DNA of 36,907 nucleotides. It comes from a virus. The stretch spans positions 1 to 36,907 of the IMG/VR virus record IMGVR_UViG_3300042566_000927; one strand, given 5' to 3'. The notes under the pieces are model-generated. The model saw only the letters and a list, made by a program, of their open reading frames with translations. It was not told the DNA's origin and searched no databases. Positions 1 through 36,907 of this stretch are shown piece by piece. A program made the translations under genes and the position numbers. The stretch's first letter is position 1; each line of letters opens with the position of its first letter.

Positions 1-241
1 GTTCCGCGCGCGCGACTTCCAGGCCCTCTACCGAGGATTCGCCATGCGCCGCGAGGCGCCCCCCTACCCGGCGCACCTGATCGGCCGCTTTGAGGCACAA
101 AACCGGATGGCCGGCCAGAAGGTCGCCGAACCGGTGCTGATCGGTAACCCCCACGACTGCCGCCAAGTGCTGAGGTTGTCCACTGGTAACCCCGTGCAGA
201 TTACGCGGGCCGCAGATGCTGTTCCGATGCTGATCGAATGA
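1..241 (+). CDS. DUF6475-like replication-region protein, C-terminal part (5' end cut by the window)
   Basis: The reading frame is open from base 2 to TGA at 239-241 and encodes the last 79 residues of the protein that is complete at 36123-36752. The last 40 residues are identical. The part before that differs by a few residues (for example APPYPAH against IPPYPRQ) and by many silent bases. The protein probably works in phage DNA replication, because its full-length copy follows directly on the initiator-like gene; this is inference from position. DUF6475 is a family name recalled from similar phage proteins and was not tested by a search. Confidence 0.8.
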   Translation, partial: FRARDFQALYRGFAMRREAPPYPAHLIGRFEAQNRMAGQKVAEPVLIGNPHDCRQVLRLSTGNPVQITRAADAVPMLIE

Positions 242-246
242 CATGC

Positions 247-309
247 CGATGGCAGACACCTACATAACAATTCCGATGGCACGGCTGGTCGAGCTTGAGG
301 CGGCCGAGC
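247..309 (+). repeat. 63-bp direct repeat, copy 1 of the MADTYITI gene start
   Basis: Bases 247-309 match 500-562 with three mismatches (269, 300, 302) and no gap. The repeat covers the start codon and first 20 codons of two neighbouring genes. The same segment recurs at 36758-36820 through the terminal redundancy. Confidence 0.9.
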
Positions 310-551
310 GCGAGCGGCTGCTGGCGCTGGCGAAGAGGCGCGCCGCCCACGAGGCAAGCGCGGCGGCACACCATGCCGGCAGGTGGCAGCAGGCCCACGA
401 GCACCACCTGACGCGGCACGCGGCGATGCGCGACCTGATCGACGCGCTTGAAGGGCAATGCTTGAGCGACGTGCCAGGCCCCGCCTTCCCGGAGCAAAAC
501 GATGGCAGACACCTACATAACCATTCCGATGGCACGGCTGGTCGAGCTTGA
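249..551 (+). CDS. Small phage protein of unknown function, MADTYITI paralogue 1
   Basis: This is a 100-residue protein if started at ATG 249; an in-frame ATG at 243 would add two residues. I prefer 249 because homology with the next gene begins there (MADTYITIPMARLVELE). The middle is charged and probably helical (AERERLLALAKRRAAHEA), suggesting a coiled coil. The last 17 or so codons read, in another frame, through the duplicated start of the next gene, so the C-terminus is a by-product of the tandem duplication. No function is recognised. It follows the replication gene by 7 bases and reappears, cut off, at the right end of the window. Confidence 0.75.
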   Translation: MADTYITIPMARLVELEAAERERLLALAKRRAAHEASAAAHHAGRWQQAHEHHLTRHAAMRDLIDALEGQCLSDVPGPAFPEQNDGRHLHNHSDGTAGRA

Positions 552-562
552 GACAGCCGAGC
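500..562 (+). repeat. 63-bp direct repeat, copy 2 of the MADTYITI gene start
   Basis: This is the second copy of the repeat at 247-309. It lies inside the 3' end of the first gene, where it is read in a different frame, and it forms the true start of the second gene. Confidence 0.9.
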
Positions 563-747
563 ACGAACGCGACATTCTGCGGAGCCAGACGCTTGACCTT
601 GCGCTGCTGGTTGGGCGCTTGATCCGGCGCATGCGTGCCGCGCGCACCGGGGAGGGCATTGCGGCCGGCGACGAAGCGCTGGAGCAGCAGTGCATCGGCT
701 ACCTGCGCTGCAAGGGCCTGACGAGCCCGCTGCGCGATGGGGCCTAA
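502..747 (+). CDS. Small phage protein of unknown function, MADTYITI paralogue 2
   Basis: This is an 81-residue protein starting MADTYITIPMARLVELE, the same start as the gene at 249, followed by an unrelated basic, probably helical body (LLVGRLIRRMRAARTGEG). It overlaps the first paralogue by 50 bases. The stop codon TAA (745-747) lies inside GCCTAAC, the R'' box of the attC-like site at 742-840. That is the usual position of the stop codon in integron gene cassettes. The function is unknown. The shared N-terminus with different C-termini suggests swapping of the distal part of the gene. Confidence 0.75.
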   Translation: MADTYITIPMARLVELETAEHERDILRSQTLDLALLVGRLIRRMRAARTGEGIAAGDEALEQQCIGYLRCKGLTSPLRDGA

Positions 748-840
748 CGTAGAGGTAAGCTGACATGCACGGCGATACACTGTTGGACGTTGCGACCATG
801 CCGGATGCCGTGCATGGTCAGCTTGACCGCGATGTTAGGC
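742..840 (+). other. Integron-type attC recombination site, complete (99 bp)
   Basis: The outer boxes are GCCTAAC (742-748) and GTTAGGC (834-840); they fit RYYYAAC and GTTRRRY and pair perfectly. Inside them are unpaired six-base spacers (749-754, 828-833). Next is a stem of GT (755-756), AAGCTGAC (757-764) and ATGCACGGC (765-773). It pairs with GCCGTGCAT (807-815), GTCAGCTT (817-824) and AC (826-827). This leaves G816 and G825 as two single-base bulges on the same arm. The remaining 33 bases (774-806) form the variable terminal loop. This is the known plan of attC: R box, spacer, L box with extrahelical bases, variable loop. The upstream gene stops inside the left box and the downstream gene starts 21 bases after the right box. 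Confidence 0.85.
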
Positions 841-860
841 ATCCCGCCACAAAGCGCGAG

Positions 861-1121
861 ATGCTGCTGTATCACGCCACCACGCCAAAGAAGGCGCAGC
901 GCTACCGCGCAAGCGGTCGGATCATTGCCCCGGTGCGCGGTTTCACGACGCTACAAGCAGCGATGGCCTGGGCCTGCAAGACGGGCCGAAGCGTGGTGCT
1001 GCAAGTACAGGGCGACGACTGCCACAAGCTGCCAGACCACCACAACGCATTCGGAGAGGCGTGGTGGGTGGATCACGATGTTGTGGCGTGGAAGTGCGTC
1101 TTCTCGCCGAAGGATGCCTAA
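861..1121 (+). CDS. Cassette-like 86-residue protein of unknown function
   Basis: The start at ATG 861 is chosen because the longer frame from 765 would run through the hairpin arm and loop of the attC-like site. From 861 the protein begins MLLYHATTPKKAQRYRASG. That opening resembles the 'YHATT..KA..I...G' pattern of small ADP-ribosyltransferase-like folds, but this is a weak resemblance and I do not assign an enzyme. The stop TAA (1119-1121) lies inside a second GCCTAAC (1116-1122). The gene thus has an attC site before it and an R'' box at its end, like a one-gene integron cassette of about 290 bp. Confidence 0.7.
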   Translation: MLLYHATTPKKAQRYRASGRIIAPVRGFTTLQAAMAWACKTGRSVVLQVQGDDCHKLPDHHNAFGEAWWVDHDVVAWKCVFSPKDA

Positions 1122-1122
1122 C
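1116..1122 (+). other. Lone attC R''-type box (GCCTAAC) at a stop codon
   Basis: GCCTAAC contains the TAA stop of the preceding gene. No matching GTTRRRY box or hairpin follows before the next gene at 1146, so only the left edge of a site remains. Its pairing with the complete site at 742-840 makes a remnant plausible; a chance match is possible for a single 7-mer. Confidence 0.45.
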
Positions 1123-1145
1123 TGCAAGATGTCAGGAGGCATGGA

Positions 1146-1427
1146 ATGAGGCGCGCGGCAAAAGTTGACAGCAACCACGCGGAGATCGTCGACGCCTTGC
1201 GCCAGGTAGGCTGCTCGGTGCAGTCGCTGGCCGCCGTTGGCGCAGGCTGCCCCGACCTGCTCGTCGGCCGGGGCGGGAAAGCGTGGCTGCTCGAGGTCAA
1301 GGCCGAGCGCGGCCGAATGACGCCCGACCAAGTCGTCTGGTTTGCGCTCTGGTCTGGTCCGCCCGTCGTCGTGGTGCGGTCGGCCGAAGATGCGCTCCAA
1401 GTCGTGGGGGGCAGCTACGTTGCGTGA
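1146..1427 (+). CDS. VRR-NUC domain nuclease (PD-(D/E)XK fold)
   Basis: This 93-residue protein matches the small stand-alone VRR-NUC nucleases of phages. The visible catalytic pattern is G-C-PDLLVGRGG followed by WLLEVKAERG. These give the Asp of the PD motif (near residue 37) and the E-x-K pair (near residues 50-52), and MTPDQ follows, as is typical. Such enzymes are thought to cut branched DNA such as Holliday junctions during phage replication and packaging; that role is from the family. AGGAGG lies just upstream at 1134-1139. The gene overlaps the start of the next by 8 bases or more. Confidence 0.85.
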   Translation: MRRAAKVDSNHAEIVDALRQVGCSVQSLAAVGAGCPDLLVGRGGKAWLLEVKAERGRMTPDQVVWFALWSGPPVVVVRSAEDALQVVGGSYVA

Positions 1428-2312: not shown

Positions 2313-2591
2313 ATGGCCGGAGTTAAAGGTAGAAGCGGAGGGGCGCGACCTGGTGCTGGCCGGCCAAAGGCTCCGCCGGAGCCGACGCCGGTTGACGATG
2401 CGCGCGATTTCCTGACTGCCGTCATGCGCGGCGAAATTACGCCGTCGACCGCGCAGTTGGACGCGGCAAAGACACTGCTGCGCGCCCAGGTGACGGGAGT
2501 CAAGGCGGAACGGCAGAAGAAGGCTGACGCTGTGGCCGTCGGCAAGTTTGCTGCCGCTGAACCGCCGCGCCTGGTTGTCAACAACAGCTAA
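2313..2591 (+). CDS. terS: Terminase small subunit
   Basis: This is a 92-residue protein, short for the family. It begins with the basic, glycine-rich segment GVKGRSGGARPGAGRPKAPP that is common at the start of phage small terminases and related DNA-binding proteins. The middle (DDARDFLTAVMRGEITPSTAQLD) reads as helices. It recognises the packaging site and hands DNA to the large subunit. The assignment rests on the basic N-terminus and on the one-base TAATG overlap with the large terminase gene. A good Shine-Dalgarno sequence (AAGGA) precedes the start. Confidence 0.75.
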   Translation: MAGVKGRSGGARPGAGRPKAPPEPTPVDDARDFLTAVMRGEITPSTAQLDAAKTLLRAQVTGVKAERQKKADAVAVGKFAAAEPPRLVVNNS

Positions 2592-4258
2592 TGCAGTGGT
2601 CGACCGCATGCCCGGACTGGTCCGAAAAACTCGTCCGGCGGGAGTCGATCATTTCGGCGCCGCTCTTTGAGCGTGAAGCGACTTCTGCGCTCGCGGTATT
2701 CGACGAGCTGCGCATCGTTGATGCGCCTGGCTCGCCGACAATGCGTGACGCGTGCCGGCCTTGGCTGCGCGACTTTGCGGCCTCCATCTTCGGCAGCTAT
2801 GACGCGGAGACTGGCCGCAGGTTGATCACCGAGTACCTCTTGCTGATCAGCAAGAAGAATGCGAAGAGCACCGGCGCGGCGGCCATCATGCTGACCGCGC
2901 TCATCCGCAACTGGCGAAGGTCTGGCGAGTTCGGGATCTTGGCGCCGACGATTGAGATTGCGAACAACTCATTCTGGCCTGCGCGCGACATGGTCCGCGC
3001 CGATGACGAGCTGCGCGAGATGATCCATGTGCAAGAGCACACGCGGACGCTGACGCACAGGGTCACAGGCGCAACGCTCAAGGTGGTTGCAGCGGATAAT
3101 GAATCCGTCGGAGGAAAGAAGTGGATCGGCACGCTTATTGACGAGCTTTGGCTGTTCGGCAAGCGGCCGAATGCCGAGAACATGCTGCGCGAAGCGATTG
3201 GAGGACTGGCGAGCCGCCCCGAAGGCTTCGTGATCTATCTGTCCACGCAGTCGGACGAGCCGCCGGCTGGTGTCTTTCGCCAGAAGCTGCACTACGCACG
3301 CGGCGTGCGCGACGGACGGATTGCTGACCGGCACTTTCTGCCAGTGCTGTATGAGTTCCCGAAGTCGCTGCTTGACGAGAGAGCCGAGCGCGACCCCGCG
3401 AACTTCTACGTTACCAATCCGAACATCGGCGCGAGCGTCGACGCACAGTTTCTAGTGCGCGAGCTGCAGAAAGCCGAGGAGTCGGGCGAGGAGTCGCTAC
3501 GCGGCTTCCTGGCAAAGCACCTGAATGTCGAGATTGGACTCGCCTTGCAGTCTGATCGCTGGGTCGGCGCAGACTACTGGCAAGCGCAGGCCAGGCCCTT
3601 GTGTCTTGATCAGATTATCGAGCGCAGCGATGTTCTGACGATGGGGATTGACGGTGGCGGCCTTGATGACCTGCTCGGCGTTACCGTGATTGGCCGCGAT
3701 GCAGAGTCGCGCGACTGGCTTAGCTGGTCGCGCGCATGGGCGCATCCGACCGTGCTTGAGCGGAGGAAGTCGGAAGCGTCCCGCTTCCGCGACTTCGAGA
3801 ACGATGGCGACCTGTCGCTGGTCCGTCAGATCGGCGAAGACGTGATCGAGGTCGCGCAGATTGCCGCGCGCCTGAATGACAGCGGCAAGCTCGACAAGAT
3901 TGGCGTCGACCCGCAAGGCATCGGGGCGATTGTTGATGCGATGATTTCCGAGGGTGTGGAGCAAGACAAGATCATCGGCATCTCACAGGGTTGGAAGCTC
4001 ACCAGCGCAATCAAGACCGTAGAGCGCAAGCTCGCTGAGGGCGGGCTGTATCACTGTGGCCGTCCGATGATGGCCTGGTGCGTTGGGAACGCGAGAGTCG
4101 AGCCGAGGGGTAATGCTGTGATCATCACAAAGCAGGCAGCCGGCTTCGCAAAGATCGATCCGCTTATGGCGCTATTCAACGCGGCGGCGCTCATGGCGCT
4201 GAATCCGGCAGGTGGTGCGTCGCTTGACAGCATCATCAATTTTCCGATCAGTGCATGA
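2591..4258 (+). CDS. terL: Terminase large subunit (HK97-like, Terminase_1 family)
   Basis: This 555-residue packaging motor has the expected motifs in order. The Walker A-like loop SKKNAKSTG is at residues 87-95, Walker B TLIDEL at 181-186, and the coupling motif LSTQSDEP near 218-224. The nuclease domain begins with TMGIDGGG (Asp354) and continues to the C-terminus. The ATPase domain drives DNA into the prohead and the nuclease domain cuts concatemers. The gene overlaps the portal gene by four bases (ATGA), so the two are translationally coupled. The length is normal for the family. Confidence 0.95.
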   Translation: MQWSTACPDWSEKLVRRESIISAPLFEREATSALAVFDELRIVDAPGSPTMRDACRPWLRDFAASIFGSYDAETGRRLITEYLLLISKKNAKSTGAAAIMLTALIRNWRRSGEFGILAPTIEIANNSFWPARDMVRADDELREMIHVQEHTRTLTHRVTGATLKVVAADNESVGGKKWIGTLIDELWLFGKRPNAENMLREAIGGLASRPEGFVIYLSTQSDEPPAGVFRQKLHYARGVRDGRIADRHFLPVLYEFPKSLLDERAERDPANFYVTNPNIGASVDAQFLVRELQKAEESGEESLRGFLAKHLNVEIGLALQSDRWVGADYWQAQARPLCLDQIIERSDVLTMGIDGGGLDDLLGVTVIGRDAESRDWLSWSRAWAHPTVLERRKSEASRFRDFENDGDLSLVRQIGEDVIEVAQIAARLNDSGKLDKIGVDPQGIGAIVDAMISEGVEQDKIIGISQGWKLTSAIKTVERKLAEGGLYHCGRPMMAWCVGNARVEPRGNAVIITKQAAGFAKIDPLMALFNAAALMALNPAGGASLDSIINFPISA

Positions 4259-33701: not shown

Positions 33702-33759
33702 ACCTAACGGGCCGGTTCAGGGGCCGCCGTAGGCGGTCCCTTGGAACCGGGTGTTAGAG
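33702..33759 (+). other. Integron-type attC recombination site, compact (58 bp)
   Basis: ACCTAAC (33702-33708) opens the site and GTTAGAG (33753-33759) closes it; five outer pairs form (CTAAC/GTTAG), and the last R' base is G, not a pyrimidine. The inner stem pairs CCGGTTC (33712-33718) with GAACCGG (33744-33750), AG (33719-33720) with TT (33741-33742), GGG with CCC, and CCGCC with GGCGG around the loop GTA. This leaves T33737 and G33743 as single-base bulges on one arm, the classic attC sign. The length is typical of short attC sites. The second methyltransferase gene starts 26 bases after it. Confidence 0.75.
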
Positions 33760-33785
33760 GGCCTGTATCCGAAGCGAAGGAATGT

Positions 33786-34589
33786 ATGAACCGCGTGATT
33801 TTTGGTGACTGCCGCGACACGATGCGCGACCTGCAGGCGCAAGGCGTGCGCGTGCAGTGCTGCGTGACGAGCCCGCCCTACTTCGGGCTGCGCGACTACG
33901 GCCACCCTGGGCAGATTGGCCTGGAGAAGACGCCGGCCGACTACGTGGCTGCGCTGGTGGAAGTGTTTGGCCTGGTGCGCGAGTTGCTTACCGAAGACGG
34001 CACGCTCTGGCTGAACGTGGGGGACGTGTTCGCCGCAAGCGGCAAAGGCGGAGGCGGTAGTGCGGGGGACCGCGCGTGCTGGGCCACGGTGCGCGAGCGC
34101 AAGGGCTTCAGGATGCCGCCGAGCGGCTACAAGAGGAAAGACCTGACGCTGGTGGCGTTTGCCCTGGCCGACGCGCTGCGCCGCGATGGCTGGTACATGC
34201 GGCAGACGATCATTTGGCGCAAGCCTGCGGCCGTGGAGCCGCTGCGGCTTGACCGGCCGGCGACAAGCCACGAATACCTGTACCTGCTGGCGCGCAACGA
34301 GCACTACTTCGCCCGCAACCCTGGCGCGAAGTGGTGGGGCCATTCGGTGTGGGACGTGACGAGCGACAGCGACGGGCAGCACCCGGCTGCGATGCCGACC
34401 GAACTGGCGCAGCGGTGCATCCTCTGCGGCAGTGAGCCCGGCGACCTTGTATTCGACCCGTTCATGGGCAGCGGCACGACCGGACGCGCGGCGGCCAGCC
34501 TGGGGCGGAAGTGGCTCGGCTGTGAGCTGAACGACGACTACAGCCGCATGCAGCAGGAGAGGACGGCCCAAAGTGCGCTGGCCCTCTAA
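33786..34589 (+). CDS. DNA methyltransferase (SPPY type), copy 2, cassette-like
   Basis: The start is ATG 33786 with AAGGA upstream. The 267-residue product has motif IV SPPYFGLRDYG at residues 29-39, a motif often seen in N4-cytosine enzymes, and motif I DPFMGSGTTGRAAASLG near residues 222-238, followed by WLGCELNDDY. The order is again IV then I. It is not closely related to the first methyltransferase outside the motifs. The gene has a complete attC-like site before it and stops (TAA 34587-34589) inside CTCTAAC, with GTTAGGC following at 34629. Confidence 0.93.
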   Translation: MNRVIFGDCRDTMRDLQAQGVRVQCCVTSPPYFGLRDYGHPGQIGLEKTPADYVAALVEVFGLVRELLTEDGTLWLNVGDVFAASGKGGGGSAGDRACWATVRERKGFRMPPSGYKRKDLTLVAFALADALRRDGWYMRQTIIWRKPAAVEPLRLDRPATSHEYLYLLARNEHYFARNPGAKWWGHSVWDVTSDSDGQHPAAMPTELAQRCILCGSEPGDLVFDPFMGSGTTGRAAASLGRKWLGCELNDDYSRMQQERTAQSALAL

Positions 34590-36142: not shown

Positions 36143-36752
36143 CCGCTCCGCTTTCGTGGAAATGCTGACCTACGTCGGAGCGCTGTACGGCCGCGACGTG
36201 TCCCCGGGCGTGATTGACCTGTATTGGTCCGCGTTGCAGCAATTCGACCTGTCAGCCGTTCGCCAGGCCCTTGACCGGCACGTTAAATCGCCGGATGCCG
36301 GCCAGTACATGCCAAAGCCAGCGGACCTGATCCGCATGATGGGCGGCACCAGCCAGGACGCTGCGATGCAGGCGTGGGCTAAGGTCGAGCGGGCGATTAG
36401 GACTGTTGGCGGCCACGAGTCCGTGGTCTTTGACGACCCGTTGATTCACCGCGCGATCGACGACATAGGCGGATGGATCAAGCTGTGCGCAGTCTTGGAA
36501 GACGATTTGCCGTTCCGCGCGCGAGATTTCCAAGCGCTTTACCGTGGCTTTGCCATGCGCAGGGAGATTCCGCCATACCCGCGGCAACTGATTGGCCGCT
36601 TTGAGGCGCAAAACCGGATGGCTGGGCAGCAGGTCGCCGAACCGGTGCTGATCGGTAACCCCCACGACTGCCGCCAAGTGCTGAGGTTGTCCACTGGTAA
36701 CCCCGTGCAGATTACGCGGGCCGCAGATGCTGTTCCGATGCTGATCGAATGA
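36123..36752 (+). CDS. DUF6475-like replication-region protein
   Basis: This 209-residue protein starts MPLRQSDRSAFVEMLTYVGA and reads LYGRDVSPGVIDLYWSALQQ, then VRQALDRHVKSPDAGQYMPK and PADLIRMMGGTSQDAAMQAW. The pattern of 'helper' proteins next to initiators (N-terminal helical domain that judges growth state, then loading region) suggests a helicase-loader-like role in the place of lambda P; this is inference. It overlaps the initiator gene by 20 bases and is repeated, cut off, at the window start. Confidence 0.75.
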   Translation: MPLRQSDRSAFVEMLTYVGALYGRDVSPGVIDLYWSALQQFDLSAVRQALDRHVKSPDAGQYMPKPADLIRMMGGTSQDAAMQAWAKVERAIRTVGGHESVVFDDPLIHRAIDDIGGWIKLCAVLEDDLPFRARDFQALYRGFAMRREIPPYPRQLIGRFEAQNRMAGQQVAEPVLIGNPHDCRQVLRLSTGNPVQITRAADAVPMLIE

Positions 36753-36907
36753 CATGCCGATGGCAGACACCTACATAACCATTCCGATGGCACGGCTGGT
36801 CGAGCTTGAGGCGGCCGAGCGCGAGCGGCTGCTGGCGCTGGCGAAGAGGCGCGCCGCCCACGAGGCAAGCGCGGCGGCACACCATGCCGGCAGGTGGCAG
36901 CAGGCCC
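36512..36907. repeat. Terminal redundancy, right copy (pairs with 1-396)
   Basis: This is the right copy of the terminal overlap. See the left copy at 1-396 for the pattern of identity. Confidence 0.9.
36760..36907 (+). CDS. MADTYITI paralogue 1, 5' part (cut by the window end)
   Basis: This is the same gene as at 249-551, here cut after 49 codons. It differs at one base (C36780 against A269), which is also the base found in paralogue 2 at 522. The change is silent in the reading frame. Confidence 0.75.
   Translation, partial: MADTYITIPMARLVELEAAERERLLALAKRRAAHEASAAAHHAGRWQQA

Follow-up and report, generated by a model that had tools for sequence, protein, structure and literature searches.

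Genes and features at the locus

The window, the whole stretch of DNA that was analysed, is a complete IMG/VR record of 36,907 bp from a tailed phage. Its large terminase is ~62% identical to the terminases of Pseudomonas siphophages, and its two ends overlap (1-396 corresponds to 36512-36907 at 94% identity), so the record is close to complete. That the overlap is 94% rather than 100% identical probably reflects a terminal redundancy assembled from two strain variants. No tyrosine recombinase or intI was found in the window (no PF00589 match). The features are listed below, with a bar inside a motif marking a cut or junction.

502-747, plus strand: gene left of the array, 81 aa, with its stop codon within the left box
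742-840, minus strand: attC site, canonical on the minus strand (R'' = 840-834, L'' = 827-807, loop, L' = 773-755, R' = 748-742)
742-748, minus strand: R' box GTTAGGC (plus-strand GCCTAAC), with the predicted IntI cut at 747/748
816 or 817, minus strand: extrahelical base, G on the plus strand, from the DNA fold and the polarity rule (PMC2727003)
825, minus strand: extrahelical base, G on the plus strand, from the DNA fold
834-840, minus strand: R'' box GCCTAAC; plus-strand GTTAGGC, Val-Arg in the frame of the gene
748-1122, plus strand: cassette A, 375 bp, attC then one gene, with two GCCTAA|C cuts as borders
765-1121, plus strand: cassette gene, 118 aa from ATG 765, 107 aa from ATG 798 or 86 aa from ATG 861
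1117-1123, minus strand: right-hand cut box GCCTAA|C, the attI-equivalent end of the array, cut at 1122/1123
1123-1170, plus strand: frameshifted 3' remnant of a small Cys-rich gene, uninterrupted in L133, L136 and L138 (frame read by eye)
2313-4258: terminase, followed by portal (4255), major head protein (6184) and tape measure (13995)
17914 and 35177: tail protein and O-like replication protein, respectively
33702-33759, minus strand: second attC, same polarity, boxes ACCTAAC and GTTAGAG (23.7 bits, E = 5e-4 over the window)
33786-34589, plus strand: probable second cassette gene, an N6/N4 DNA methylase (PF01555), with right junction CTAA|CGAACTG at 34589/34590

The gene upstream of the hairpin ends inside the left box, as the original prediction held, with the TAA of 502-747 lying within 742-748. 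The same prediction placed the start of the downstream gene 21 bases past the right box, which is true of the shortest reading only; an open frame already begins within the attC, at ATG 765 or 798. The cassette gene (765-1121) had no match in Pfam, PHROG or NCBIfam, and homologues were found in 36 IMG/VR loci and in Aeromonas and Pseudomonas phages. In the latter, namely Aeromonas phages 2L372X and phiA047 and Pseudomonas phage PPAT (L256, L257 and L258), no attC was found near the homologue, which in PPAT lies directly 3' of a primase/helicase gene. Three further loci (L030, L032 and L033) have the cassette-A gene in common with the window only from position 849, the attC-coded N-terminus having been lost in frame, and here the cassette has turned fixed.

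The gene preceding the array has a peculiarity of its own. A 67-bp direct repeat (246-313 and 499-566) duplicates its N-terminus, MADTYITIPMARLVELE, and three relatives (L127, L131 and L132) have a single copy of the repeat followed by different C-terminal bodies, a pattern that suggests a variable gene at the left edge of the array.

The hairpin at 742-840 is an attC-like site

attC boxes are defined as the inverted repeats RYYYAAC and GTTRRRY, a form that GCCTAAC (742-748) and GTTAGGC (834-840) fit. These boxes had been predicted to frame the site and they pair perfectly. The predicted stem (755-773 with 807-827) is likewise completely paired apart from G816 (or G817) and G825, both on the right arm, and is closed by an apical loop that does measure 33 nt. 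The six-base spacers (749-754 and 828-833), described as unpaired, are mostly so, although some of their bases can pair in the minimum-energy fold. The second extrahelical base is a C, one base off the usual A. The DNA fold of the hairpin has an energy of -29.4 kcal/mol (z = -6.1), equalled by none of 200 shuffles. Its box and stem score is 20, whereas the highest score reached when the full 36.9-kb window was dinucleotide-shuffled 400 times was 10.

Comparison with bacterial attCs gave the same picture. A covariance model (R1), built solely from 14 attCs of intI-adjacent arrays in bacterial genomes, matched 742-840 on the minus strand with 32.9 bits (E = 1.3e-5 over 220 kb). When R1 was run with filters off, the length limit of the model blocked a full match at this site (9.8 bits, partial). 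Because R1 undercounts the longest attCs, these were scored with our own loop-tolerant script, which gave 44.7 for 742-840, 17.4 for the highest-scoring window position outside an attC and no match of at least 30 in 347 kb of shuffled sequence. The score of 742-840 is mid-range among the attCs scored; the scorer did not recover the published P12002L sites. The sequence type of the window attC matches gammaproteobacterial integrons. At gathering thresholds Rfam had no match, ARAGORN found no tRNA, and no DNA similarity to window positions 701-900 was found among INPHARED phages or PLSDB plasmids. Anatomy, shuffles and covariance model together support the prediction of an integron attC within a phage, and we conclude that 742-840 is a genuine attC-like site.

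A terminator or translational control element that merely resembles attC would also form a hairpin here, overlapping a stop and a start codon, and mRNA hairpins can affect expression. We consider this explanation extremely improbable: there is no T-run, the R boxes are exact, the spacers are in place, the extrahelical bases are confined to one side, a covariance model of attCs matches, and cassette borders fall at the boxes. The attC itself may nevertheless have an added regulatory role.

Polarity and predicted cut

When the gene-sense strand of bacterial intI-linked arrays is read, the extrahelical bases occupy the left arm, whereas in the window both are on the right arm of the plus strand, which is the R''-L'' arm of the minus strand. 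The attC is therefore read on the strand opposite to the genes. The original prediction had assumed the opposite polarity, and only the minus-strand reading places the extrahelical bases on the R''/L'' arm. When extrahelical bases were moved to the other arm of an attC, the recombining strand switched and the cut moved to the other box (PMC2727003). From these mutants and the polarity of the window site, the predicted cut is GCCTAA|C at 747/748 and not at 834/835.

This polarity redefines the cassette. With the minus strand as the canonical reading of the attC, the mobile unit would not be the gene at 502-747 plus attC, as first proposed, but the attC with the gene to its right (748-1122). A cassette gene in the same sense as its attC is usual, if not strictly defining; the cassette gene of the window is antisense.

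Near-identical phages exchange cassettes at the predicted cut

Close relatives of the window phage allowed before-and-after comparisons. Window positions 1-749 and 1115-1950 are common to these relatives at 95-98% identity. In seven of them (L127-L130, L132, L134 and L137) the backbone is 95-98% identical, cassette A is missing, and other cassettes, with other genes, are in place between the left box and 1115/1116. The breakpoint in the R' box at 747/748 is common to L127-L130, L134 and L137. As the relatives are 95-98% and not 100% identical, several exchange steps may be merged in these comparisons.

The clearest pair is L134 and L137, which differ by one 537-bp attC+gene unit, present in L134 at GCCTAA|C beside the right junction, with a left flank that is 98% identical. 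By comparison of the alleles, this unit sits where an integron would be expected to insert at attI. Units of attC plus gene are thus gained and lost precisely at the R' cut, as cassettes are.

Three relatives (L133, L136 and L138) have no cassettes at this site. Their sequence reads GATCAT|CTGCAA and diverges from the window exactly at 1122/1123, and the empty place is inside the small Cys-rich gene whose frameshifted 3' remnant lies to the right of the window junction (frames read by eye). Allele comparison suggests that junction 1122/1123 is used like attI. On the attC strand the empty site is G|AT. Cassettes reportedly also integrate at attG sites with the target motif GWT, with which the empty place agrees. 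For the left end of the array, no empty allele was found among known relatives.

A probable second site carries DNA-modification genes

Site 2 spans 33702-34589. The same borders, ACCTAA|C and CTAA|CGAACTG, enclose other DNA-modification genes in two relatives, a Mom gene (PF25680) in L137 and a C5-methylase gene (PF00145) in L132. Since a whole attC is present only in the window lineage, L132 and L134 having no intact one, we grade site 2 as a probable second cassette site. In L132 the site-2 gene has its TGA stop just ahead of the box, and ordinary mosaicism may therefore contribute at this site as well.

On a near-identical contig piece (L031) the two attCs are separated by 3.5 kb. A CALIN is a cluster of at least two attCs within ~4 kb that lacks intI; this is the spacing seen in L031, and the window has no tyrosine recombinase.

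These exchanges could instead come from mosaicism driven by RecA or a phage recombinase, with the GCCTAAC boxes and hairpins serving as short homology linkers and the attC fold as a relic. Phage genomes are mosaic, L030, L032 and L033 have a breakpoint at 849, away from the box, and the missing attCs at site 2 of L132 and L134 point the same way. We nonetheless hold this to be unlikely, because homologous recombination is not efficient over boxes of only seven bases, the insertions and losses of single cassettes are clean to the exact base, the stems and extrahelical bases are preserved in hundreds of divergent sites, and intI adjoins the arrays in many phages (see below).

Antisense cassettes are common in viral genomes

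We searched IMG/VR with one degenerate 22-mer as seed, which matched at least 119 stretches. Among the matches listed, at least 269 attCs were found in 73 viral loci. According to the original prediction, phages do not normally carry integron cassettes, yet integron components have been published in 21 phages (PMC9892861) and such carriage proved common in the survey. The hairpin at 742-840 is also not the only such site: the window has a second attC at 33702-33759, and other phages have up to 12 attCs per locus, some with their own intI.

Orientation was nearly uniform. Among the matches listed, coding flanks were antisense rather than sense to the attC by 358 to 5, and 70 of the 73 loci were antisense. 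ORF length gave ambiguous strand calls in these GC-rich phages, so a codon-usage test was used and a PHROG control added. The codon-usage test, trained on the window phage, called 12 of 14 known genes correctly. In the PHROG control, 110 antisense cassette ORFs gave 51 families and 60 opposite-strand control ORFs gave 2; the families among the antisense proteins include DNA methyltransferases, Mom and RNA ligase. Bacterial intI-linked arrays were mostly sense, with both flanks sense at 33 of 46 sites by the ORF method and a sense to antisense ratio of 12:4 by the codon method, which left most sites undecided.

Long viral attCs (> 80 nt) differ from short ones in where translation could begin. 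An ATG whose frame stays open for at least 30 codons past the box occurs within 90 of 161 long sites, and an internal ATG with an open frame within 9 of 126 short ones. A Shine-Dalgarno-like sequence together with an ATG inside the attC was found in 71 of the 161 long sites and 1 of the 126 short, and 82 of the 126 short sites have this pair just past the box instead. The window ORF (765/798-1121) passes through the hairpin, and its homologues in L034 and L035 are also open into their attCs. Judged from these reading frames, a cassette gene with a loop start would span its own attC loop and run to the next cut, ending with the TAA in the next box.

Alternatively, the array could be a passive CALIN fragment that came from the chromosomal integron of a bacterium and undergoes no further exchange in phages. 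Such a fragment would account for the gammaproteobacterial sequence type of the window attC, and published phage CALINs have been read as captured fragments (PMC9892861). This origin is very improbable given that the genes are inverted relative to bacterial cassettes and that near-identical phages differ in their cassettes. Moreover, a search of one genome each of 84,980 species found the cassette gene in two MAG contigs only, neither of them a chromosomal integron as far as examined, and it was absent from the plasmids searched. L067, a 4.8-kb contig from a 'Pseudomonadales' MAG, probably belongs to a phage; it carries a pair of attCs together with the end of cassette A.

Phages with their own integron integrase

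Three of 37 array-bearing records encode an integron integrase above the NCBI curated cut-off (425-428 bits versus 265), and these three contigs carry head, tape-measure, tail-fibre or primase genes. A wider IntI scan retained 80 viral loci of 290 relatives. attCs lie upstream of intI in 46 of the 59 viral IntI loci with room for them, in every case on the strand used by integrons. Their cassette genes lie antisense to the attC by 153 to 4 and are thus co-directional with intI. Terminase (phrog_9) was found in 8 of 39 IntI records and portal (PF04860) in 8 of 39; only these families were tried, so the phage identity of the remaining IntI records rests on IMG/VR. Two IntI phages (L287 and L288) are 99.9% identical, with backbones that match at 99-100%, and differ by three gains or losses of whole cassettes, of 616, 451 and 757 bp, each exactly at the cut.

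The closest solved structure to the phage IntI is that of Vibrio cholerae IntI (2a3v, E = 4e-71). In INPHARED, 9 of 50,697 records have an IntI relative at E <= 1e-40, at most 53% identical to the G310 IntI query, and these nine are mostly known class 1, Vibrio and Shewanella cases. In a tree that included ten bacterial IntIs and four bad rows (L291, L296, L308 and L344, which look like wrong-frame ORFs), most viral IntIs fell outside the group holding the bacterial ones. With that sampling and those rows, the phage IntIs only provisionally form separate lineages. One cassette beside the intI of record G310 (L266:8774-9142) has a weak match, below cut-off, to the Acb2/Tad1 hairpin domain (PF24729) and is possibly an anti-defence gene.

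A model for cassette exchange

We consider it highly probable that 742-840 is a functional-type attC of a one-gene phage cassette (748-1122) that is exchanged as a whole unit by an IntI acting in trans. The integron integrase would come from the host or from a co-resident IntI-encoding phage. It would recognise the folded attC strand, which, because the extrahelical bases are on the right arm, would be the coding strand of the phage. Cutting at GCCTAA|C would then let attC+gene units enter, leave or replace one another as wholes. Because the next cut box can supply the TAA with which a gene ends, an exchange would leave reading frames unbroken, and in long attCs, where ribosome-binding site and start codon lie in the loop, the next gene would be translated out of the hairpin. 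The cassette genes are thus co-directional with the phage operon and inverted relative to the attC, contrary to the arrangement in bacterial integrons. The phage would probably benefit by being able to replace anti-defence and other accessory genes rapidly, in particular those for DNA modification.

A broader reading, towards which we lean slightly, is that tailed phages keep an integron system of their own, with distinct IntI lineages, inverted start-in-loop cassettes, a recombinogenic coding strand and a phage-private pool of accessory and anti-restriction genes, which the inversion would isolate from the bacterial pool and in which integrase-less phages would be served in trans.

Relation to known integrons

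Phage attCs, CALINs and recombination by IntI1 are already known: integron components were described in 21 phages, and five of six phage attCs were positive in IntI1 recombination assays (PMC9892861). The TJE1-type phage CALINs, with sites of a kind that IntI1 recombines, are like the window in being integrase-less attC arrays with methyltransferase cassettes (Qi et al. 2023, PMC9892861). In Tetrasphaera phage TJE1, however, the attCs are on the same strand as the genes, whereas those of the window and the survey are antisense, and the survey phages add loop starts, natural swaps and IntI lineages outside INPHARED. The complete integrons of temperate phages (Vibrio p16, the class 1 integron of P1, Shewanella M16-3; PMC9892861) also combine a phage-borne intI with attCs, but have been traced to host or class 1 integrons, and their IntIs are at most 53% identical to that of G310.

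Gammaproteobacterial chromosomal integrons resemble the phage arrays in attC anatomy and sequence, and in the intI-attC geometry of the IntI-bearing phages. They differ in that bacterial cassette genes are mostly sense; those of the phages are antisense, point toward intI and continue the phage operon. The attG integration reportedly described by Loot and colleagues in 2024 (Nat Microbiol 9:228, cited in PMC12444791) is similar in using a place that is neither attI nor attC, as the G|AT empty allele would be, but the phages compared here reuse one place, apparently in the manner of an attI. The literature searched, with preprints and most subscription journals lying outside it, held no report of uniform inversion, the start-in-loop design, phage IntI lineages or cassette swaps between sibling phages, and these four features appear to be new.

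Phage mosaicism is usually ascribed to homologous or illegitimate recombination. The cassettes described here would contribute a further mechanism, one that is site-specific and moves a single gene at a time, and of which natural before-and-after pairs exist. Integrons would then serve viruses as well as bacteria. The cassettes also suggest how phages could trade methyltransferases and Mom to counter host restriction. The findings raise the question of why the cassettes are inverted, whether for the DNA strand that is exposed or for pool separation. Were a bacterial integron to capture a phage cassette, the gene would point against the promoter of that integron, and vice versa; as a speculation, the inversion could thus keep phage and bacterial cassette pools apart.

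Three records (L324, L326 and L327) have a phage-type IntI at the very edge of the IMG/VR record, and the corresponding arrays may begin just beyond the borders that were called. The three have numbers in the style of IMG genomes and are probably proviruses of sequenced isolates, which could provide cultured hosts.
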